Notes under the pieces: generated by a model
The model's input: only the letters and a program-made list of their open reading frames with translations
Databases searched by the model: none
Told to the model about the DNA's origin: nothing
Shown: positions 39,474 to 46,043 of the stretch, in pieces
How positions within the stretch are numbered: the first letter of the stretch is position 1
How the letters are laid out: the number at the start of each line of letters is the position of its first letter
Translations under genes and position numbers: made by a program
NCBI GenBank assembly: GCA_033762625.1
Contig: JANRLI010000016.1
Coordinates: 1-64,000, forward strand
Length of the DNA: 64,000 bases
Source of the DNA: Alphaproteobacteria bacterium
GTDB taxonomy: Bacteria; Pseudomonadota; Alphaproteobacteria; UBA9219; RGZA01
Reading direction: 5' to 3'

Positions 39474-41675
39474 TTATTCCACTCTGTCAAATCCCCACAC
39501 AGCATTATTGATGCCGGGCTGGGTTGCTGCGCCAACCAGTTCAAGACGCAAATTATTATTCATATGGCGCGGTAATCCAAAGCGCAGCGTACGGTCAGAT
39601 AATTGCCATTCATGCACGCGGCGAACAACACCCGATGCCAGATCAGCCGAAAGTGTTTCGGTAAACGTGCCTTCCACTACATTGGTCGTGGGTCGGCCGT
39701 AAATGCGCACCAGCTCGCTCAGGATATTTTTATAATCACGCTCCAGTGCCGATGAACTATCGCTGGTGTTTTCAAACACCACACCATGGCGAACCAGCTT
39801 GCCGTTCTTTGTTTCATACACCACGCGTTGCGGGGTTGAAAGACGCGTGAACACATCATCGCTGACCACAATCATGCCATTTGATACATTCGCGCTAAGA
39901 TTTTCTTTTTTCAACTTTTCAAGCAGCGCGGTTTGCGTCATGCCCAATTCCGGCTTGCGCAGCAATTCATCGCTGGATACTTCCAGCGCCTCGGTTGCTG
40001 CCTTGCCTTCAACCGGCACAGCCACAGTTGCATCCGGCGCATTGCTGAAATGCACCGTATAATTCATGCCTACACGCCATGCGTGGGTGTCTTGGGCTGC
40101 GTCAGGATAGCGCTGGAAATAATCGCCCGATAGCGAAACGGTATGAATACCGGTGGTATAGCTATAACGGCCCGATGCGGTTTCACTGAAAATATGGTTG
40201 CTGGGCGGCACATATTCTTCTGTGTTGTTATTCTGGTAATTCACATTGAATGAATGGCCATAATAATTTGCATTCGCCGAAATCTGCGGGCCATATTGCA
40301 ATGAATGGCGCGCGCCGGTTGTGCTTTCGGTAATCACCATACCAGGACTTAAGGTTCCTGATAATTCACCAAAGGTCCATCGCCAATCCGCGCCCAGGGA
40401 ATGATCATGCGCCTCGGTTATCGCAGCGGTAATATTGTTATGCAGCTTGCGGTAACGAAAGCCATACCGGCCTGATACATCATCGGTAATCGTTTTCGTT
40501 ACATTCAATCCGGTTGTATAGGTTTGCGAATGCGTGGTTACGCTTTCATTGCGCAAATGCGTGGATGATGCATCAACCGACCCCGTCAGCCCATCAACCA
40601 GTGTGCCAAGCAGCGGCCCCGTTAAACGCACACCGTAAGTATTTTCAGTTAACGGGTTTGCCGTCTCCAGCGCGGATTCCGTGCGGTTCTGGCGGCCCGT
40701 TAAGCGAAGCCCGCCATCAAACTTCCAGCCAATCTGTGTTTCAAGATGGCTTTGGTTAGACTGCACACTACCCCCCGCAGGCTGATAATTCGTGCCATAG
40801 CGTTCAAACAAAACACTATAGGTCAGCGGGATTTTGCTGTGCCCCTCCAGACGCGTGAACAATCCCACATCCGTCTGATTGGTTTTGGGTGATGTGACCA
40901 CCGCGCCGGGTAAATCGCCATTCAATATACCAACTTCATTTTCAAAGCTCAGGCTTTGCCCCAACAGGTTCATATCGGTTGATGCGCCCAGCGACGTTAC
41001 ATTTTGTTGTAAGTCCAGCGATGAAACCGCGCTATCGGGTTTCTTGTAGTTATAAACATGATTGATAATGAACGAGCCATAGGCATCGTTTTCAGCAAGG
41101 TACGATGCACCGGTGAAAAAACTTTTATCAAAATTGACCTGACGGTAAATGCTCTGGTCAAACCCCGCCATGGCGTTAACAGAATGCGACCACGCACCGG
41201 AACTGCTTGGCTGCAATTCAATATTTGCGCCTTTTAACGGTAACTGCATGGAACGCGGCGAGAAGCTGGCATAAAAATCACCGGCATCAACCACATACGG
41301 CACTGCGCTTTCGCCGTTTTCCCATGTGGTTGAAAATTGCTCCACGCTTCCATTGCGGTACTGGCTGCGATAGTCGCTGCGGTTATAAAGTCCGTTAAAG
41401 CGGCCCTTGATGGATTGGTAAGGGGAAATTTCTTTTGAAAACTGCGCGTTGGTTTCGCCGTAAATCTGGTTGCCTGTATTCTGATACGGACTACCCGCCA
41501 GCGCGCCCGAATACTGGTAATTCGAAACATCCACTGACGCATCACCTTCAATCAGCCAGCCCGAAAGCGGGTCGAATGACACAGCATTTCCTTGGGCGCT
41601 TTCTTCTGCAAATGCTGGCGCAGCCAGCAGTAAGCCGGCCAGTGCGCATGATGTGAAAAGGAAGCGTTTAGTCAT
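39474..41675 (-). CDS. predicted outer-membrane beta-barrel with C-terminal soluble domain
   Basis: I do not recognise this 733-residue protein. A signal peptide (FLFTSCALAGLLLAAPAFAEE) is followed by ~530 residues of alternating amphipathic strands with Tyr/Trp girdles (YRSQYRNGSVEQFSTTW, SGRYGFRYRKLHNNIT, GRYSYTTGIHTVSLSGDYF). This is consistent with a large barrel of about 20-24 strands. The last ~180 residues are soluble (ELGMTQTALLEKLKKENLSANV; RYGRPTTNVVEGTFTETL) and would lie in the periplasm. It is the last of four consecutive genes for exported proteins, 8 bp after the previous one. It may be a channel or assembly platform for the secreted proteins upstream. Confidence 0.75.
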   Translation of the reverse strand: MTKRFLFTSCALAGLLLAAPAFAEESAQGNAVSFDPLSGWLIEGDASVDVSNYQYSGALAGSPYQNTGNQIYGETNAQFSKEISPYQSIKGRFNGLYNRSDYRSQYRNGSVEQFSTTWENGESAVPYVVDAGDFYASFSPRSMQLPLKGANIELQPSSSGAWSHSVNAMAGFDQSIYRQVNFDKSFFTGASYLAENDAYGSFIINHVYNYKKPDSAVSSLDLQQNVTSLGASTDMNLLGQSLSFENEVGILNGDLPGAVVTSPKTNQTDVGLFTRLEGHSKIPLTYSVLFERYGTNYQPAGGSVQSNQSHLETQIGWKFDGGLRLTGRQNRTESALETANPLTENTYGVRLTGPLLGTLVDGLTGSVDASSTHLRNESVTTHSQTYTTGLNVTKTITDDVSGRYGFRYRKLHNNITAAITEAHDHSLGADWRWTFGELSGTLSPGMVITESTTGARHSLQYGPQISANANYYGHSFNVNYQNNNTEEYVPPSNHIFSETASGRYSYTTGIHTVSLSGDYFQRYPDAAQDTHAWRVGMNYTVHFSNAPDATVAVPVEGKAATEALEVSSDELLRKPELGMTQTALLEKLKKENLSANVSNGMIVVSDDVFTRLSTPQRVVYETKNGKLVRHGVVFENTSDSSSALERDYKNILSELVRIYGRPTTNVVEGTFTETLSADLASGVVRRVHEWQLSDRTLRFGLPRHMNNNLRLELVGAATQPGINNAVWGFDRVE

Positions 41676-41683
41676 TTATGGTG

Positions 41684-42199
41684 CTAGCTCTTCTGGCGCG
41701 TCGTCAATTCAAACAGATATTCGCCCGACCCGCGAAGGCGGGTATTGCCGATACGCGCATCCTGGTAATGCACATCGGTCTCAACTTCGGCGGACACAAC
41801 GCTGACCAATAGCGGCCTACCATCATCGCCCTGCTTGGTTTTCTGGCCAATCACCTTGATGGCGCGGATGCTTTTAACCTCGATGCGCGCATCAAATGGC
41901 ACATGGTTATTCAGCGCGCTGATCAATTCACTACGGTTTGGAAAACGCTCGCCCAGATAGTTTTCAATATCCCCCGTGCCCCAATTCGCCATCAGCTTTT
42001 CAATCGCCTTGCGGATGAATTCCTGATCAAGTGATACGGTTGGCGCGCCGACAGGACCGCCGCTCTTGTCATCGGCCTGTAACACGCTGTCATTTTCAAA
42101 CGGGGTTTTGATGGCGCGTTTTTCACGGAATTCACGTGCATCCACGGGCGATGCCACCAGCATCAATCCGGCAACCAGCATCAGAATAATTTTTTTCAT
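41684..42199 (-). CDS. small exported protein, possibly NTF2-like
   Basis: A 171-residue protein with a signal peptide (KKIILMLVAGLMLVASPVDA). The body (FIRKAIEKLMANWGTGDIENYLGERFPNR; ARIEVKSIRAIKVIGQKT; VSAEVETDVHYQDARIG) has the helix-then-four-strand order of an NTF2-like fold, but this is a weak guess. It lies 13 bp after the 237-residue protein and 8 bp before the barrel gene. The ATG at 42199 has a GGAG site. No family is recognised. Confidence 0.7.
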   Translation of the reverse strand: MKKIILMLVAGLMLVASPVDAREFREKRAIKTPFENDSVLQADDKSGGPVGAPTVSLDQEFIRKAIEKLMANWGTGDIENYLGERFPNRSELISALNNHVPFDARIEVKSIRAIKVIGQKTKQGDDGRPLLVSVVSAEVETDVHYQDARIGNTRLRGSGEYLFELTTRQKS

Positions 42200-42212
42200 A
42201 TGCACTCTCCCG

Positions 42213-42926
42213 TTACAGTTTTACAAAACTACTGATGATCACGCTGCCACCGCCTGCCCCGTTGGTTTGTACCGTCAGTGTCATGCGATAGGTCACGCCG
42301 CCCTTTGAAATCTGTACATTCGGCGTTGCAAGCCCGCCGCCAAGTCCGGGGATAAGCGTTGTGATATTTGCAACCCAACCATTCAATCCGGTCACGGCTG
42401 CACTTACAGTGGTAAAGCTATCCACCTGTAATACACCGTTCAGCGCGGAAGGTCCTGCCGCCATCGAACATGCGCCATTACCCGACGCCGGGAACACCAG
42501 ATCCACCGATGGCGCAAATGCAAATGCCGCCGGAAAACGCGTACCATCAGGACAGGTCACAAGAGCTGTTGTTGCAGACGAAGATGTTGTCGTAACCGAA
42601 CGGGTTTCGGGGTCAATCTGGTTACGCACATCACTGACGCGGAAGGGGAGAATTCCGCCCGCACCTGCTGGGCGTTGCTTGAGCAATTTAATATCGACCA
42701 GTTCCTGATTGCGGCCATCGATTTTTATGGTTTGCAGTGTAGGTGCGGATTTTGAAACGGATTTTACTTCCGGTACCGCTGGCACAGGCTTGGGCGCCTG
42801 CACTTGACTAGGCGCTTGCGTAATCGAATAGGTTGCAACGCCTTCAAATTGCTTGAACGGCACAGCATGCGCAGGCAATGCCAGCAGCGCAACACTTATG
42901 CATGGAATGATAAAACTGCGGGTCAT
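42213..42926 (-). CDS. exported protein sharing a motif with the 980-residue protein
   Basis: A 237-residue protein with a signal peptide (IIPCISVALLALPAHA). A Pro/Val/Ala linker follows, then LVDIKLLKQRP...LPFRVSDVRNQIDP at residues ~76-108. This closely matches LVDIRLMKVKP...SPFTIGDVKNKIDP in the 980-residue protein upstream. The C-terminal ~100 residues are strands rich in Ala, Thr and Val with a Cys pair (VTCPDG, NGACSM), resembling a small beta-sandwich such as those of pilin-like or secreted fibre proteins. The function is unknown; the shared motif implies a common partner. Confidence 0.75.
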   Translation of the reverse strand: MTRSFIIPCISVALLALPAHAVPFKQFEGVATYSITQAPSQVQAPKPVPAVPEVKSVSKSAPTLQTIKIDGRNQELVDIKLLKQRPAGAGGILPFRVSDVRNQIDPETRSVTTTSSSATTALVTCPDGTRFPAAFAFAPSVDLVFPASGNGACSMAAGPSALNGVLQVDSFTTVSAAVTGLNGWVANITTLIPGLGGGLATPNVQISKGGVTYRMTLTVQTNGAGGGSVIISSFVKL

Positions 42927-43016
42927 TAAAGGGGGATGCCTCTACACAATTTGATTATTTTGGGTAACAAAATGGCGGTTTTTTTACAAGAAATGATTGC
43001 GCTAAGCCTGATAATA

Positions 43017-43054
43017 ATGGGGCAAGTCGTCATGAAAACCACAACCTGCCCCAT
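43017..43054 (-). promoter_or_regulatory. intercistronic hairpin
   Basis: ATGGGGCA-x-GTxGT arms pair over 14 positions (two as G-U) around a 10-nt loop, in the 174-bp gap between the 980- and 237-residue genes. The T run is poor, so partial termination or RNA processing is likely rather than a full stop. Confidence 0.5.
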
Positions 43055-43100
43055 CATACTCAAAAGTAAACCTCAAAAGCACCCATGCGCTAAGTTTTTA

Positions 43101-46043
43101 TTAAGGCTTATACGGATTGCATGCACGCGCCGCAGCATCACACCCTGATGGGCACGGCGCTACATTCATCGCCGCATCATGATAACAGGTGGTGAGTGTA
43201 TTGGCATCGGAGCAATAATTTCCATCCGCCTTTCCGGAACAAAATGGTGCAGAACCGCCTGATGCCGGGCCGGATGTACTGCGCAAACTACGTGGCGCAA
43301 TGGGCGCAGCAGGGGCGGTTGGCGCAATTCCATCATTGCCAAGACCTTTAGGCGCAGGTTTTCCATTACCTGCATCCGCATTTTCATTTGCCGCAGGGTC
43401 GATTTTGTTTTTTACATCGCCAATGGTGAAAGGCGACACACCGCTTAAGGGTTTTACCTTCATCAAGCGGATATCGACCAGCACATTATCCTTATCACCC
43501 ACTGCGCGCTTGTCACCGCCAGCGCGTTTGGGTTTTGCGGCATTCAGTGCGTTATCCAGATTTTTGCCATTGCCCAGCTTGTCTTTCAGATTTCCCTTCG
43601 CTGCGGCCTTGGTCAGATCATCGGCATGGGCTTCACCCTCGCGCTTATTCTTTTTGGTATCTAACGGGTCTGTATCCAGCCCGTTTTTCGACATGCCGCC
43701 AACCCAAGGCTTGATGTCCTTTGCTTTGGTTGCGCCGTTTTTGCCAATACCTTTTTCAATCAGCTTGCGCTCCTGTTCTTTGATTTTGCTGTAATCGGAA
43801 TAATACAATGATGTATCAGGTGCACAGCATGGGCTTTGCACATATCCGCTCTTGGTCAAATGGCACTTGGCGCGCGCATCCGTGCCTTTACCCGCAGCTT
43901 TCACGCACGCCTTGAGCGCGGCGGGCGTTTTGCATACCACGCGGAACAAATCCGGCTTGCCGTCAAACGCAGTACCAAAAGTGCAATTACCGTTTGAATC
44001 ATCCACCAGCTTCTTTGCCGCTGCCAGTTCTTCAGGTGTACGCTGCGATGGGTCATACGTATCTACATATGCGCTGCCGCCGCCAAATACTGCCGCCACA
44101 CAACATGGTTTTTCGACTAACCCTCCAGCGCCGATTTTGCATTTTTCCTGTCCGAAGGTGTTTTTACACGTGGTGCGATTGGCTTCGCTGCCGCATGAAA
44201 TAATGCGCGGGTCATAGGTCAACAGATTGTCCACCGAATAGCCGCCAACCGAACATGCCTGCGCAGGTTCGCCGCCATGCGTTTCCACAAATTTCTTGAC
44301 GACCGCAACACCTTCCACACTGTCCAGCCCATCCGGATTGAATGAACAGCATACGGTGGTGGCACGGCCCAAATCATCAACCGCCTTGGGGTCGCATACG
44401 CGCTGGTTCATCCAGCTGAAATGATTCTGGCATGCCTCATAGGTTTGCTTCAGCGTGCACACAACTTTCAACGGATCATTAGGCGTGGTGGTACAGAACG
44501 GTCCACCACTTTCCTTGGCAACCTTGGCTGCAAACTCCATCGCCATTTGCTCGCCCTGGCTGGGTTTTTCGCCGCCCTTACAACATGGAATTTCATTTCC
44601 GCCCAATTCCAGCGTGCTGGATACGCAAGCTTTGGGGTATGCCTTTGTACATACATCTAACCCTTGGCCATCCTGACATTTAATCAGGTTACGCATGGCG
44701 GAATCCGTGCTGCACAGCCCGCCGGTTTTTCCGGTCATCGCATAGGTCAGGTTTTTCTGAATGGTATTGCGCGCCTTATCCATATCCCATGGATGATAGC
44801 TAGATGGGCTATAACTCACAAAATCATCGCAGACGGTTTCAATCGGCACATCATTGAACGCCGCAGCAAAGATATTCGCTTGCGGATAACGCTGCACGAA
44901 ATACTGCTTACAGGTTGCGCGCACCTCTTCCTTGACTTTCTTGAACTCCGCATCGCCAATCAACGCCGCGCCTTCGGCTTTGGGCTTCACGTTCTTTTTG
45001 TAATAATCGCCGCGTTCCACCTGGAATTCGGCCCATTGCAATTTGCCCATGGATTGCACGATGTAGCGGTCACGCAATATCGCACATACTTTTTTGGAAT
45101 TGCTTGCCGACAAATTGGTAGGCTCAAAATAATCATAGCATTTTTGGTAAAGCGTATTGGCTAAATCCTTATAGCCATCCTTACCCAATTCGGGCACAAA
45201 CATCTGCGCATAATATTGTTCGAACGGAATGTGATCGCCGCCAATCAATCCCAAACCTTCCGCCAGTGCGCCGCCCGCTGAAACTACAAATCCCACAACC
45301 TTACCGGCAACGCTTTCGCATGCAGCAGCCGCCACATCACTCACGATGGGAATGGAACCAATGCCGGAATATTCTTCAGCCAGCTTGCAGGCCACTTTGG
45401 GCCCCATGGTGGTAATCATGGTTTCAAGGGCCGCGCCGTAATTTCCATCCTTAATCGACTTCAAGATGGAAATGGTTGTTCCTACAATCTGATCAACCAG
45501 TTTTTCAGACGGGAAGTTACTGTCAAACGCGGCATCGCATTCGCAATCCCAATTCGTCAGAATTGGCCCCAGATAAGGAATGGCGGAGATTTCGGAATCT
45601 ACCGCACTTTTACCCTCACTGATCTGGTCAGCCAGCAAGTTGCGCAGAAAATCCGCTTTGCTCTTGCCCAGATATTCATCGCCCTTGCGGTCGATAAACT
45701 GATAAGCCTGCTGGATGGGCTGATAGCTTTTGCAATTCCCGCCGTTGATGGGCAACAGCTTGGGGATGCTTTGCAGTTTGGTAACTTTCAACGCGCCAAT
45801 AAATCCAACCAGCGAATAATCCTGCTCCAGCGTATAGGCTACAATGGTGCTGGCACATACCGGATGCTTGATTGCGAAAATGGTAGCTTCGCGTTGGTCA
45901 TTATCCAGCCCCAATAACGGACTAATTTTTTCGAGCACATCTTCCCATGATGGCCATCCGGCATGCGCAGGTGGTGCGCCAAGCACCATAAAACATGCAA
46001 AGCTTGCAGCGATTATCCGCTGGAATAGGTGTATCTTGGCCAT
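43101..46043 (-). CDS. 980-residue exported protein with four six-cysteine modules
   Basis: I do not recognise this protein. A signal peptide (IIAASFACFMVLGAPPAHAG) is followed by ~400 mostly helical residues with scattered cysteines. Then come four tandem modules (residues ~444-488, 517-566, 597-648, 687-740), each with the order C-x(11-19)-C-x8-C-x(7-13)-C-x(11-14)-CC. After a basic Lys/Gly linker comes LVDIRLMKVKP...DVKNKIDP (~855-888), a motif shared with the 237-residue protein, then a Pro/Ala stretch and a final six-Cys knot. The regular cysteines imply disulfide-bonded repeats, outside the cytoplasm. It heads the four-gene export locus, with a GGTCAAG/CTTGACC repeat upstream. Confidence 0.8.
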   Translation of the reverse strand: MAKIHLFQRIIAASFACFMVLGAPPAHAGWPSWEDVLEKISPLLGLDNDQREATIFAIKHPVCASTIVAYTLEQDYSLVGFIGALKVTKLQSIPKLLPINGGNCKSYQPIQQAYQFIDRKGDEYLGKSKADFLRNLLADQISEGKSAVDSEISAIPYLGPILTNWDCECDAAFDSNFPSEKLVDQIVGTTISILKSIKDGNYGAALETMITTMGPKVACKLAEEYSGIGSIPIVSDVAAAACESVAGKVVGFVVSAGGALAEGLGLIGGDHIPFEQYYAQMFVPELGKDGYKDLANTLYQKCYDYFEPTNLSASNSKKVCAILRDRYIVQSMGKLQWAEFQVERGDYYKKNVKPKAEGAALIGDAEFKKVKEEVRATCKQYFVQRYPQANIFAAAFNDVPIETVCDDFVSYSPSSYHPWDMDKARNTIQKNLTYAMTGKTGGLCSTDSAMRNLIKCQDGQGLDVCTKAYPKACVSSTLELGGNEIPCCKGGEKPSQGEQMAMEFAAKVAKESGGPFCTTTPNDPLKVVCTLKQTYEACQNHFSWMNQRVCDPKAVDDLGRATTVCCSFNPDGLDSVEGVAVVKKFVETHGGEPAQACSVGGYSVDNLLTYDPRIISCGSEANRTTCKNTFGQEKCKIGAGGLVEKPCCVAAVFGGGSAYVDTYDPSQRTPEELAAAKKLVDDSNGNCTFGTAFDGKPDLFRVVCKTPAALKACVKAAGKGTDARAKCHLTKSGYVQSPCCAPDTSLYYSDYSKIKEQERKLIEKGIGKNGATKAKDIKPWVGGMSKNGLDTDPLDTKKNKREGEAHADDLTKAAAKGNLKDKLGNGKNLDNALNAAKPKRAGGDKRAVGDKDNVLVDIRLMKVKPLSGVSPFTIGDVKNKIDPAANENADAGNGKPAPKGLGNDGIAPTAPAAPIAPRSLRSTSGPASGGSAPFCSGKADGNYCSDANTLTTCYHDAAMNVAPCPSGCDAAARACNPYKP

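Follow-up and report, generated by a model that had tools for sequence, protein, structure and literature searches.

A recurrent gene set for a very large outer-membrane barrel, an NTF2-like partner and motif-bearing secreted proteins: a candidate Sec-dependent export or display system

Outer-membrane routes and a four-gene locus

Chaperone-usher systems use a Sec-dependent two-step route in which a 24-stranded usher barrel with a C-terminal periplasmic part works together with a small dedicated periplasmic chaperone of the PapD type. In two-partner secretion (TpsA/TpsB, type Vb), a large exported protein with an N-terminal TPS domain is encoded in one operon with its cognate barrel, the 16-stranded, POTRA-bearing TpsB. 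Very large barrels also occur in MtrB/PioB, where MtrB surrounds the multihaem cytochrome MtrA, as well as in AlgE and in LptD, which has 26 strands and is associated with LptE. Slam (type XI) proteins, which combine TPR repeats with a 14-stranded barrel, provide a dedicated outer-membrane barrel for surface-exposed proteins.

We analyzed a locus that resembles each of these systems in part. It lies within a 64,000-nucleotide stretch of alphaproteobacterial DNA, hereafter the window, and consists of four consecutive open reading frames (ORFs) on the minus strand, running from 46043 to 39474. The intergenic gaps of 174, 7 and 8 bp leave the last three genes closely packed and the first one looser. 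Judged by eye at the N-termini, all four products carry textbook Sec signal peptides (...LLLAAPAFA/EE, ...VASPVDA/RE, ...LALPAHA/VP and ...VLGAPPAHA/GW). Gene order, small gaps and export signals thus agree with the original prediction, which had been made from the sequence alone. The features are as follows.

43101..46043, minus strand: Cys-module protein, 980 aa, with signal peptide, four 6-Cys modules (aa 444-740), shared motif and a short Cys-rich C-terminus; proposed cargo or surface protein
43383..43490, minus strand: shared motif inside the Cys-module protein, aa 852-887, DNVLVDIRLMKVKPLSGVSPFTIGDVKNKIDPAANE
42213..42926, minus strand: motif protein, 237 aa, with signal peptide, linker, motif (aa 73-110) and a C-terminal region presumed to be of beta type
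42597..42710, minus strand: shared motif inside the motif protein, aa 73-110, NQELVDIKLLKQRPAGAGGILPFRVSDVRNQIDPETRS
41684..42205, minus strand: small periplasmic protein, 173 aa, with signal peptide, EFRxxxxIxTP N-terminus and a predicted NTF2-like domain (aa 57-170)
39474..41675, minus strand: predicted outer-membrane barrel, 733 aa, with signal peptide, about 26 strands (aa 40-544) and a C-terminal alpha/beta domain (aa 570-716)

None of the four window proteins matched a Pfam family, and NCBIfam gave no meaningful match. The base composition along the locus is unremarkable, and a promoter and terminator scan of the locus performed no better than on shuffled sequences.

The Cys-module protein contains 41 cysteines and four 6-Cys modules of the form C..C..C..C..CC (aa 444-488, 517-566, 597-648 and 687-740), preceded by an N-terminal half and followed, after the motif, by a short Cys-rich C-terminus. 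Its motif stretch is 46% identical to that of the motif protein over 35 residues, with E-values of 3.5e-5 among 229 proteins and 1.6e-4 against the whole genome; the resemblance is therefore more than chance, and the motif of about 33 residues that had been proposed to link the two products is borne out. Outside the motif region, the Cys-module protein has no relative in the other loci described below, and a search of the genome contig collection returned no match, which marks it as a candidate cargo peculiar to the window organism. The fixed core of the system is the barrel, the NTF2-like protein and the motif.

Predicted folds of the barrel and its small partner

An AlphaFold2 model of moderate confidence (mean pLDDT 76, pTM 0.62) predicts about 26 barrel strands at aa 40-544, followed by a mixed alpha/beta domain at aa 570-716, in line with the large barrel with a periplasmic domain expected at the outset. 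The first modelled strand begins at residue 40, right behind the signal peptide, and the last one, WRVGMNYTVHF, resembles a beta-signal. Searches of the barrel family against Pfam (12 members, E<=0.5) and NCBIfam returned only sub-threshold, chance-level rows, so the original prediction does not founder on a known, unrelated porin family. Sequence-profile searches of solved structures with the barrel and the small protein likewise yielded nothing meaningful.

In the model of the small protein (pLDDT 85), helices pack against a long sheet of antiparallel strands. NTF2-like domains make up most of its best VIA matches, at Z 8-9, among them NTF2 itself (1gy7_D, Z 8.7 over 95 residues, rmsd 2.4), and its Foldseek E-values are weak. 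On the basis of this model, we assign it a predicted NTF2-like alpha/beta fold and place it provisionally in that superfamily. Its N-terminus, EFRxxxxIxTP, is extended, conserved and located directly after the signal peptide. Its family gave only sub-threshold, chance-level rows in Pfam (11 members) and in NCBIfam, with no chaperone family among the Pfam rows.

Structure searches with the full barrel model, in which the barrel part fills the match list and the C-terminal domain is not fairly represented, indicate that the nearest solved folds of the predicted barrel are large barrels in general. The FimD/PapC ushers came first by Foldseek E-value (1e-8), and FimD (9fxb_D) reached Z 16.0 in VIA over 330 residues (rmsd 4.2). 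This would be expected if the system were a remote chaperone-usher branch, with the barrel as a degenerate usher, the motif strand as donor strand and the NTF2-like protein replacing the PapD-type chaperone; the strand-like stretch with which the motif opens, as read from its sequence, and the Ig-like domains of several cargos would also fit. We regard this reading as quite improbable. AlgE and Occ porins stand at the same Z as the usher, which is thus a generic large-barrel match, and usher homology based on the top Foldseek matches was rejected since unrelated porins score equally. Pfam usher models matched none of the 12 barrel members (E<=0.5), and no usher, chaperone or pilin family was hit in Pfam by any member. 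Furthermore, the signal peptide leads directly into the barrel, which leaves no N-terminal chaperone-binding domain, and the partner fold is predicted to be NTF2-like rather than PapD-like, without a chaperone-family Pfam match in any of the 11 small-protein members. The likeness to chaperone-usher systems accordingly comprises the Sec-dependent two-step route, the large barrel with a C-terminal periplasmic part, the dedicated small periplasmic partner, a cargo with a strand-like element and the presence of ushers among the top structural matches. The system differs in its predicted strand number (about 26 against 24), in the lack of a predicted N-terminal domain, in its partner, in its large, non-pilin cargo and in the absence of any family-model match.

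The top VIA match of the barrel model was AlgE (Z 16.9, 318 aligned residues, rmsd 7.8). In addition, barrels of 26 strands are found among lipid and polysaccharide exporters, with LptD as one case and GfcD, the subject of a model paper (PMC11494523), as another. One might hence suppose an AlgE- or LptD/GfcD-like polysaccharide or lipid exporter, whose exported polymer is bound by the secreted proteins. This idea, too, appears improbable to us: inspection of the neighbourhoods, as ORF lists only, revealed no polysaccharide-pathway gene that recurs, the large proteins and the motif go specifically with the barrel, and what speaks for the idea does not go beyond generic fold similarity. Unlike LptD/LptE and AlgE-type proteins, with which it has barrel size in common, the system barrel bears its periplasmic domain at the C-terminus, lacks a sequence match to them and was found near no pathway neighbours in the ORF lists.

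By TM-score, MtrB (6r2q_B) ranked among the best Foldseek matches (0.37/0.41). MtrB/PioB proteins resemble the system barrel in their very large size and similar strand number; the system differs from them by the extra C-terminal domain on its barrel and by the lack of a multihaem cytochrome. In spite of the resemblance in fold, the MtrB/PioB family model matched none of the 12 barrel members (E<=0.5).

With two-partner secretion, the system shares a large exported protein and a cognate barrel encoded in an operon. Its barrel is, however, far larger than TpsB and has no POTRA domain, as the first strand follows the signal peptide directly and no POTRA/ShlB model matched. It further involves an extra NTF2-like protein, and its cargo bears the motif C-terminally instead of a TPS domain at the N-terminus; Pfam matched no such domain in the window proteins, and the cargos of other loci likewise gave no match of that type. 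The two-partner-like character suggested earlier is retained as an analogy only. Slam (type XI) is comparable as a dedicated outer-membrane barrel for surface-exposed proteins, whereas the system barrel is much larger (about 26 strands in the model), shows neither an N-terminal TPR nor a TPR match, and its proposed cargos in the window are not lipoproteins.

Membership in the usher, two-partner, Slam and porin-cytochrome systems thus fails in each case at a tested defining feature, and the likeness to chaperone-usher and two-partner systems is one of working principle, not of membership. This upholds the view that no known secretion family accounts for the locus. Literature searches turned up no description of the gene set, which is new as a gene system within the libraries and open-access papers searched.

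In one further locus (L030, 2893-3483, minus strand), the C-terminal domain of the barrel stands alone as a protein of about 196 aa with a lipoprotein-like signal (SACAG), next to a repeat protein that is FG-GAP-like in appearance. This suggests that the domain is able to act as a separable periplasmic adaptor.

Conservation of the core and specificity of the motif

Of 43 tabulated loci, several of which are close relatives or duplicates of one another, 40 have the gene for the small protein beside the barrel gene and in the same orientation; in the remaining three, the contig is truncated or the barrel fragmentary. In most loci the small gene is found immediately upstream of the barrel, and in four (L043, L045, L060 and L067) downstream of the motif protein. 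Barrel homologs were present in 7 of 398 genomes drawn from the phylum, own genome included. The small protein occurred in six of these seven and in none of the others, corresponding to a Fisher p of about 1e-12 (7e-11 without the window genome), with the kinship of genomes ignored. The two components are paired at near 1:1. The co-occurrence in other genomes that the original prediction had called for is found for the barrel and the small protein, and homologs do not mostly occur alone, the small protein never being encountered without the barrel among the 398 genomes.

A second complete copy resides on another contig of the same genome. Next to a motif-containing, coiled-coil-like secreted protein of 746 aa, it encodes homologs of the small protein (160 aa) and of the barrel (728 aa) that are 28-35% identical to their window counterparts. 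Barrel, NTF2-like protein and a motif-bearing secreted protein are thus encoded together in the window as well as in the second copy. Upstream of the latter (L006, 2-3647) are ORFs of 734, 171 and 295 aa, the first with CxC stretches near its end. In three other loci (L023, 8-634; L027, 16469-17344; L028, 2710-3546), the locus is adjoined by a gene whose product looks like a regulator and ends in a LuxR-type C-terminus (LMKKLGASSR.EVVAIAAR).

The distribution of the system is patchy. None of the 32 other genomes in the order contained a barrel homolog, and these comprise two congeners at 98-100% completeness; within the class, such homologs were present in 8 of 385 genomes, again including the own genome. 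A scan of 84,980 species genomes yielded 36 loci in Alpha-, Beta-, Gamma- and Zetaproteobacteria, Magnetococcales, Thermodesulfobacteriota, Nitrospirota and Nitrospinota. It was seeded by a single peptide pattern from a nine-member barrel alignment, a 12-barrel alignment being too diverged for a pattern, and the resulting distribution is therefore an undercount biased to that pattern. The barrel tree, many deep forks of which are weak, does not cleanly follow taxonomy and places the two copies of the window genome apart, which fits a patchy, possibly horizontal, acquisition. No copy was detected in a plasmid collection searched with three barrels or in viral contigs searched with the barrel.

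Across loci, the motif can be generalised as (strand)-GNNP[FL]N-(x)-P, that is, a strand-like stretch, the residues G-N-N-P-[FL]-N and, a few positions later, another proline. It sits in a secreted protein next to the small gene at most barrels and essentially nowhere else in the genomes tested. When the motif profile was compared with the 8,972 ORFs of the loci, significant matches were limited to ORFs of the system, and leave-one-locus-out profiles recovered the motif in nearly every other locus. Whole-genome searches gave exactly three matches in the window genome (the two window proteins plus the large protein from the second copy) and two in the complete genome of Kordiimonadales IMCC3096, one per locus; all of these lie inside loci, the next best match having E=2.3. 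Among the 398 genomes, five of the six that were motif-positive are barrel carriers.

The window motif itself has diverged, with SPF/LPF replacing NNPF, and is not recovered by a family profile built without the window sequences. A profile of the window motifs alone ranks the Magnetococcales motif protein first among other ORFs (E=0.015, next 2.5), and the motif of this protein is itself picked up by the family profile at E=2e-4; the link is thus transitive plus positional. Five loci (L027-L029, L072 and L081) have only a variant motif, GFxPL or GFDPY, and two Burkholderiales loci (L071 and L073) have no detectable one.

The divergence of the window motif, together with the lack of relatives of the Cys-module protein, could be taken to mean that an ordinary porin merely neighbours unrelated secreted proteins. 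Strong co-occurrence and synteny over at least four phyla and the second complete copy in the same genome make such a coincidence extremely improbable, and it was rejected for the barrel, the small protein and the motif protein.

Large variable proteins and the proposed working of the system

In several alphaproteobacteria, the motif is carried by a separate protein of about 250 aa. In other loci, the part corresponding to the window motif protein is fused to the C-terminus of a large protein, and the motif is situated C-terminally in the large proteins of the second copy, Gallionella, Sterolibacterium, Neptunomonas, Spongiibacteraceae and one Nitrospirae MAG. The large proteins of Gallionellales and Neptunomonas (L055 vs L078) share homology as far as the motif and continue beyond it into different C-terminal domains, so that the motif marks a domain boundary. 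Large proteins diverge faster than the barrel and the small protein, with 54-87% identity among close relatives whose barrels are 75-93% identical. They are the variable part of the system and often bear repeats: tandem repeats are present in some, adhesin-type Big_1 repeats in L071 and L073, adhesin-type HYR repeats in L060 and L067, and a Hydin-type Ig domain in L064. Tandem repeats were also seen within two motif proteins (L063 8396-8700, 57 bp x 5.4; L059 4395-4829, 165 bp x 2.6, encoding a Cys-containing repeat).

Accessory secreted proteins of several loci have in common a CYxxxEL-type C-terminal tail followed by a basic helix (L049 2362-3042; L067 3726-4238 and 4229-4936; L060 7543-8163; L043 6011-7186; L045 8134-9276), and in Mariprofundaceae this tail is joined to a FecR domain. 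The tail is a candidate second signature of the system. In three Thermodesulfobacteriota loci, a second protein of about 1000 aa is encoded near the cargo gene (L068 659-3655, L062 4996-8076, L074 2048-5500); these proteins are mutually related and partly match the large proteins of Gallionellales and Neptunomonas.

The main rival to an export function is a stable trans-envelope scaffold. Here, the barrel would form a permanent sleeve or anchor, comparable to MtrB enclosing MtrA or to the LptD/LptE pair, the motif protein would sit in or under it, and the large protein would be a structural element of the surface or periplasm. The structural match to MtrB, likewise a very large barrel, is compatible with this reading, as are the near 1:1 pairing of barrel and small protein and the fusion of motif domain and large protein, which fits a stoichiometric complex. 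On the other hand, the Big_1 and HYR repeats of the cognate proteins point to surface display, and not one CxxCH haem motif occurs in 24 large proteins of the loci that were checked, which excludes an electron conduit and led us to reject a porin-cytochrome reading. We consider a scaffold unlikely on balance, yet deserving of serious attention.

Our somewhat favored interpretation is instead that the locus represents one copy of a widespread and apparently undescribed Sec-dependent outer-membrane export or display system, whose cargo is recognised via the motif. As suggested by the signal peptides, Sec would carry all components to the periplasm. There, the NTF2-like protein could serve as a dedicated partner of the barrel, be it as chaperone or adaptor or as a gate of the barrel. 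The motif would act as a recognition or docking element that brings the cargo into contact with the barrel, with the C-terminal periplasmic domain of the barrel or with the NTF2-like protein, and the wide barrel would let the cargo through or retain it, exposing the long variable part of the cargo on the outside. The loci inspected show no inner-membrane or ATPase gene that recurs beside the core, and the lack of a recurrent inner-membrane energy component fits a two-step outer-membrane route like that of other Sec-dependent systems. What the computation establishes is the gene system with its conservation, the specificity of the motif, the predicted folds and the adhesin-like character of several large partners. 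The surface-assembly system originally envisaged holds good for the gene set as such, while transport of the motif proteins by the barrel is the hypothesis that we put forward. For the more far-reaching proposal, namely a new type of Sec-dependent outer-membrane secretion or display in several Gram-negative phyla, in which a barrel and its NTF2-like partner thread large adhesin-like, motif-recognised proteins to the surface or assemble them there, we see the chances as evenly poised.

If true, the few outer-membrane routes would be joined by one more secretion or display system, distinguished by an unusually large barrel, by a partner fold that is not so used in the systems compared, and by a compact, searchable cargo signature. 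Core families that are without description in the curated libraries searched would thereby gain a function. Surface proteins could also be sought by this means in environmental bacteria such as iron oxidisers, sulphate reducers, magnetococci and marine alphaproteobacteria.
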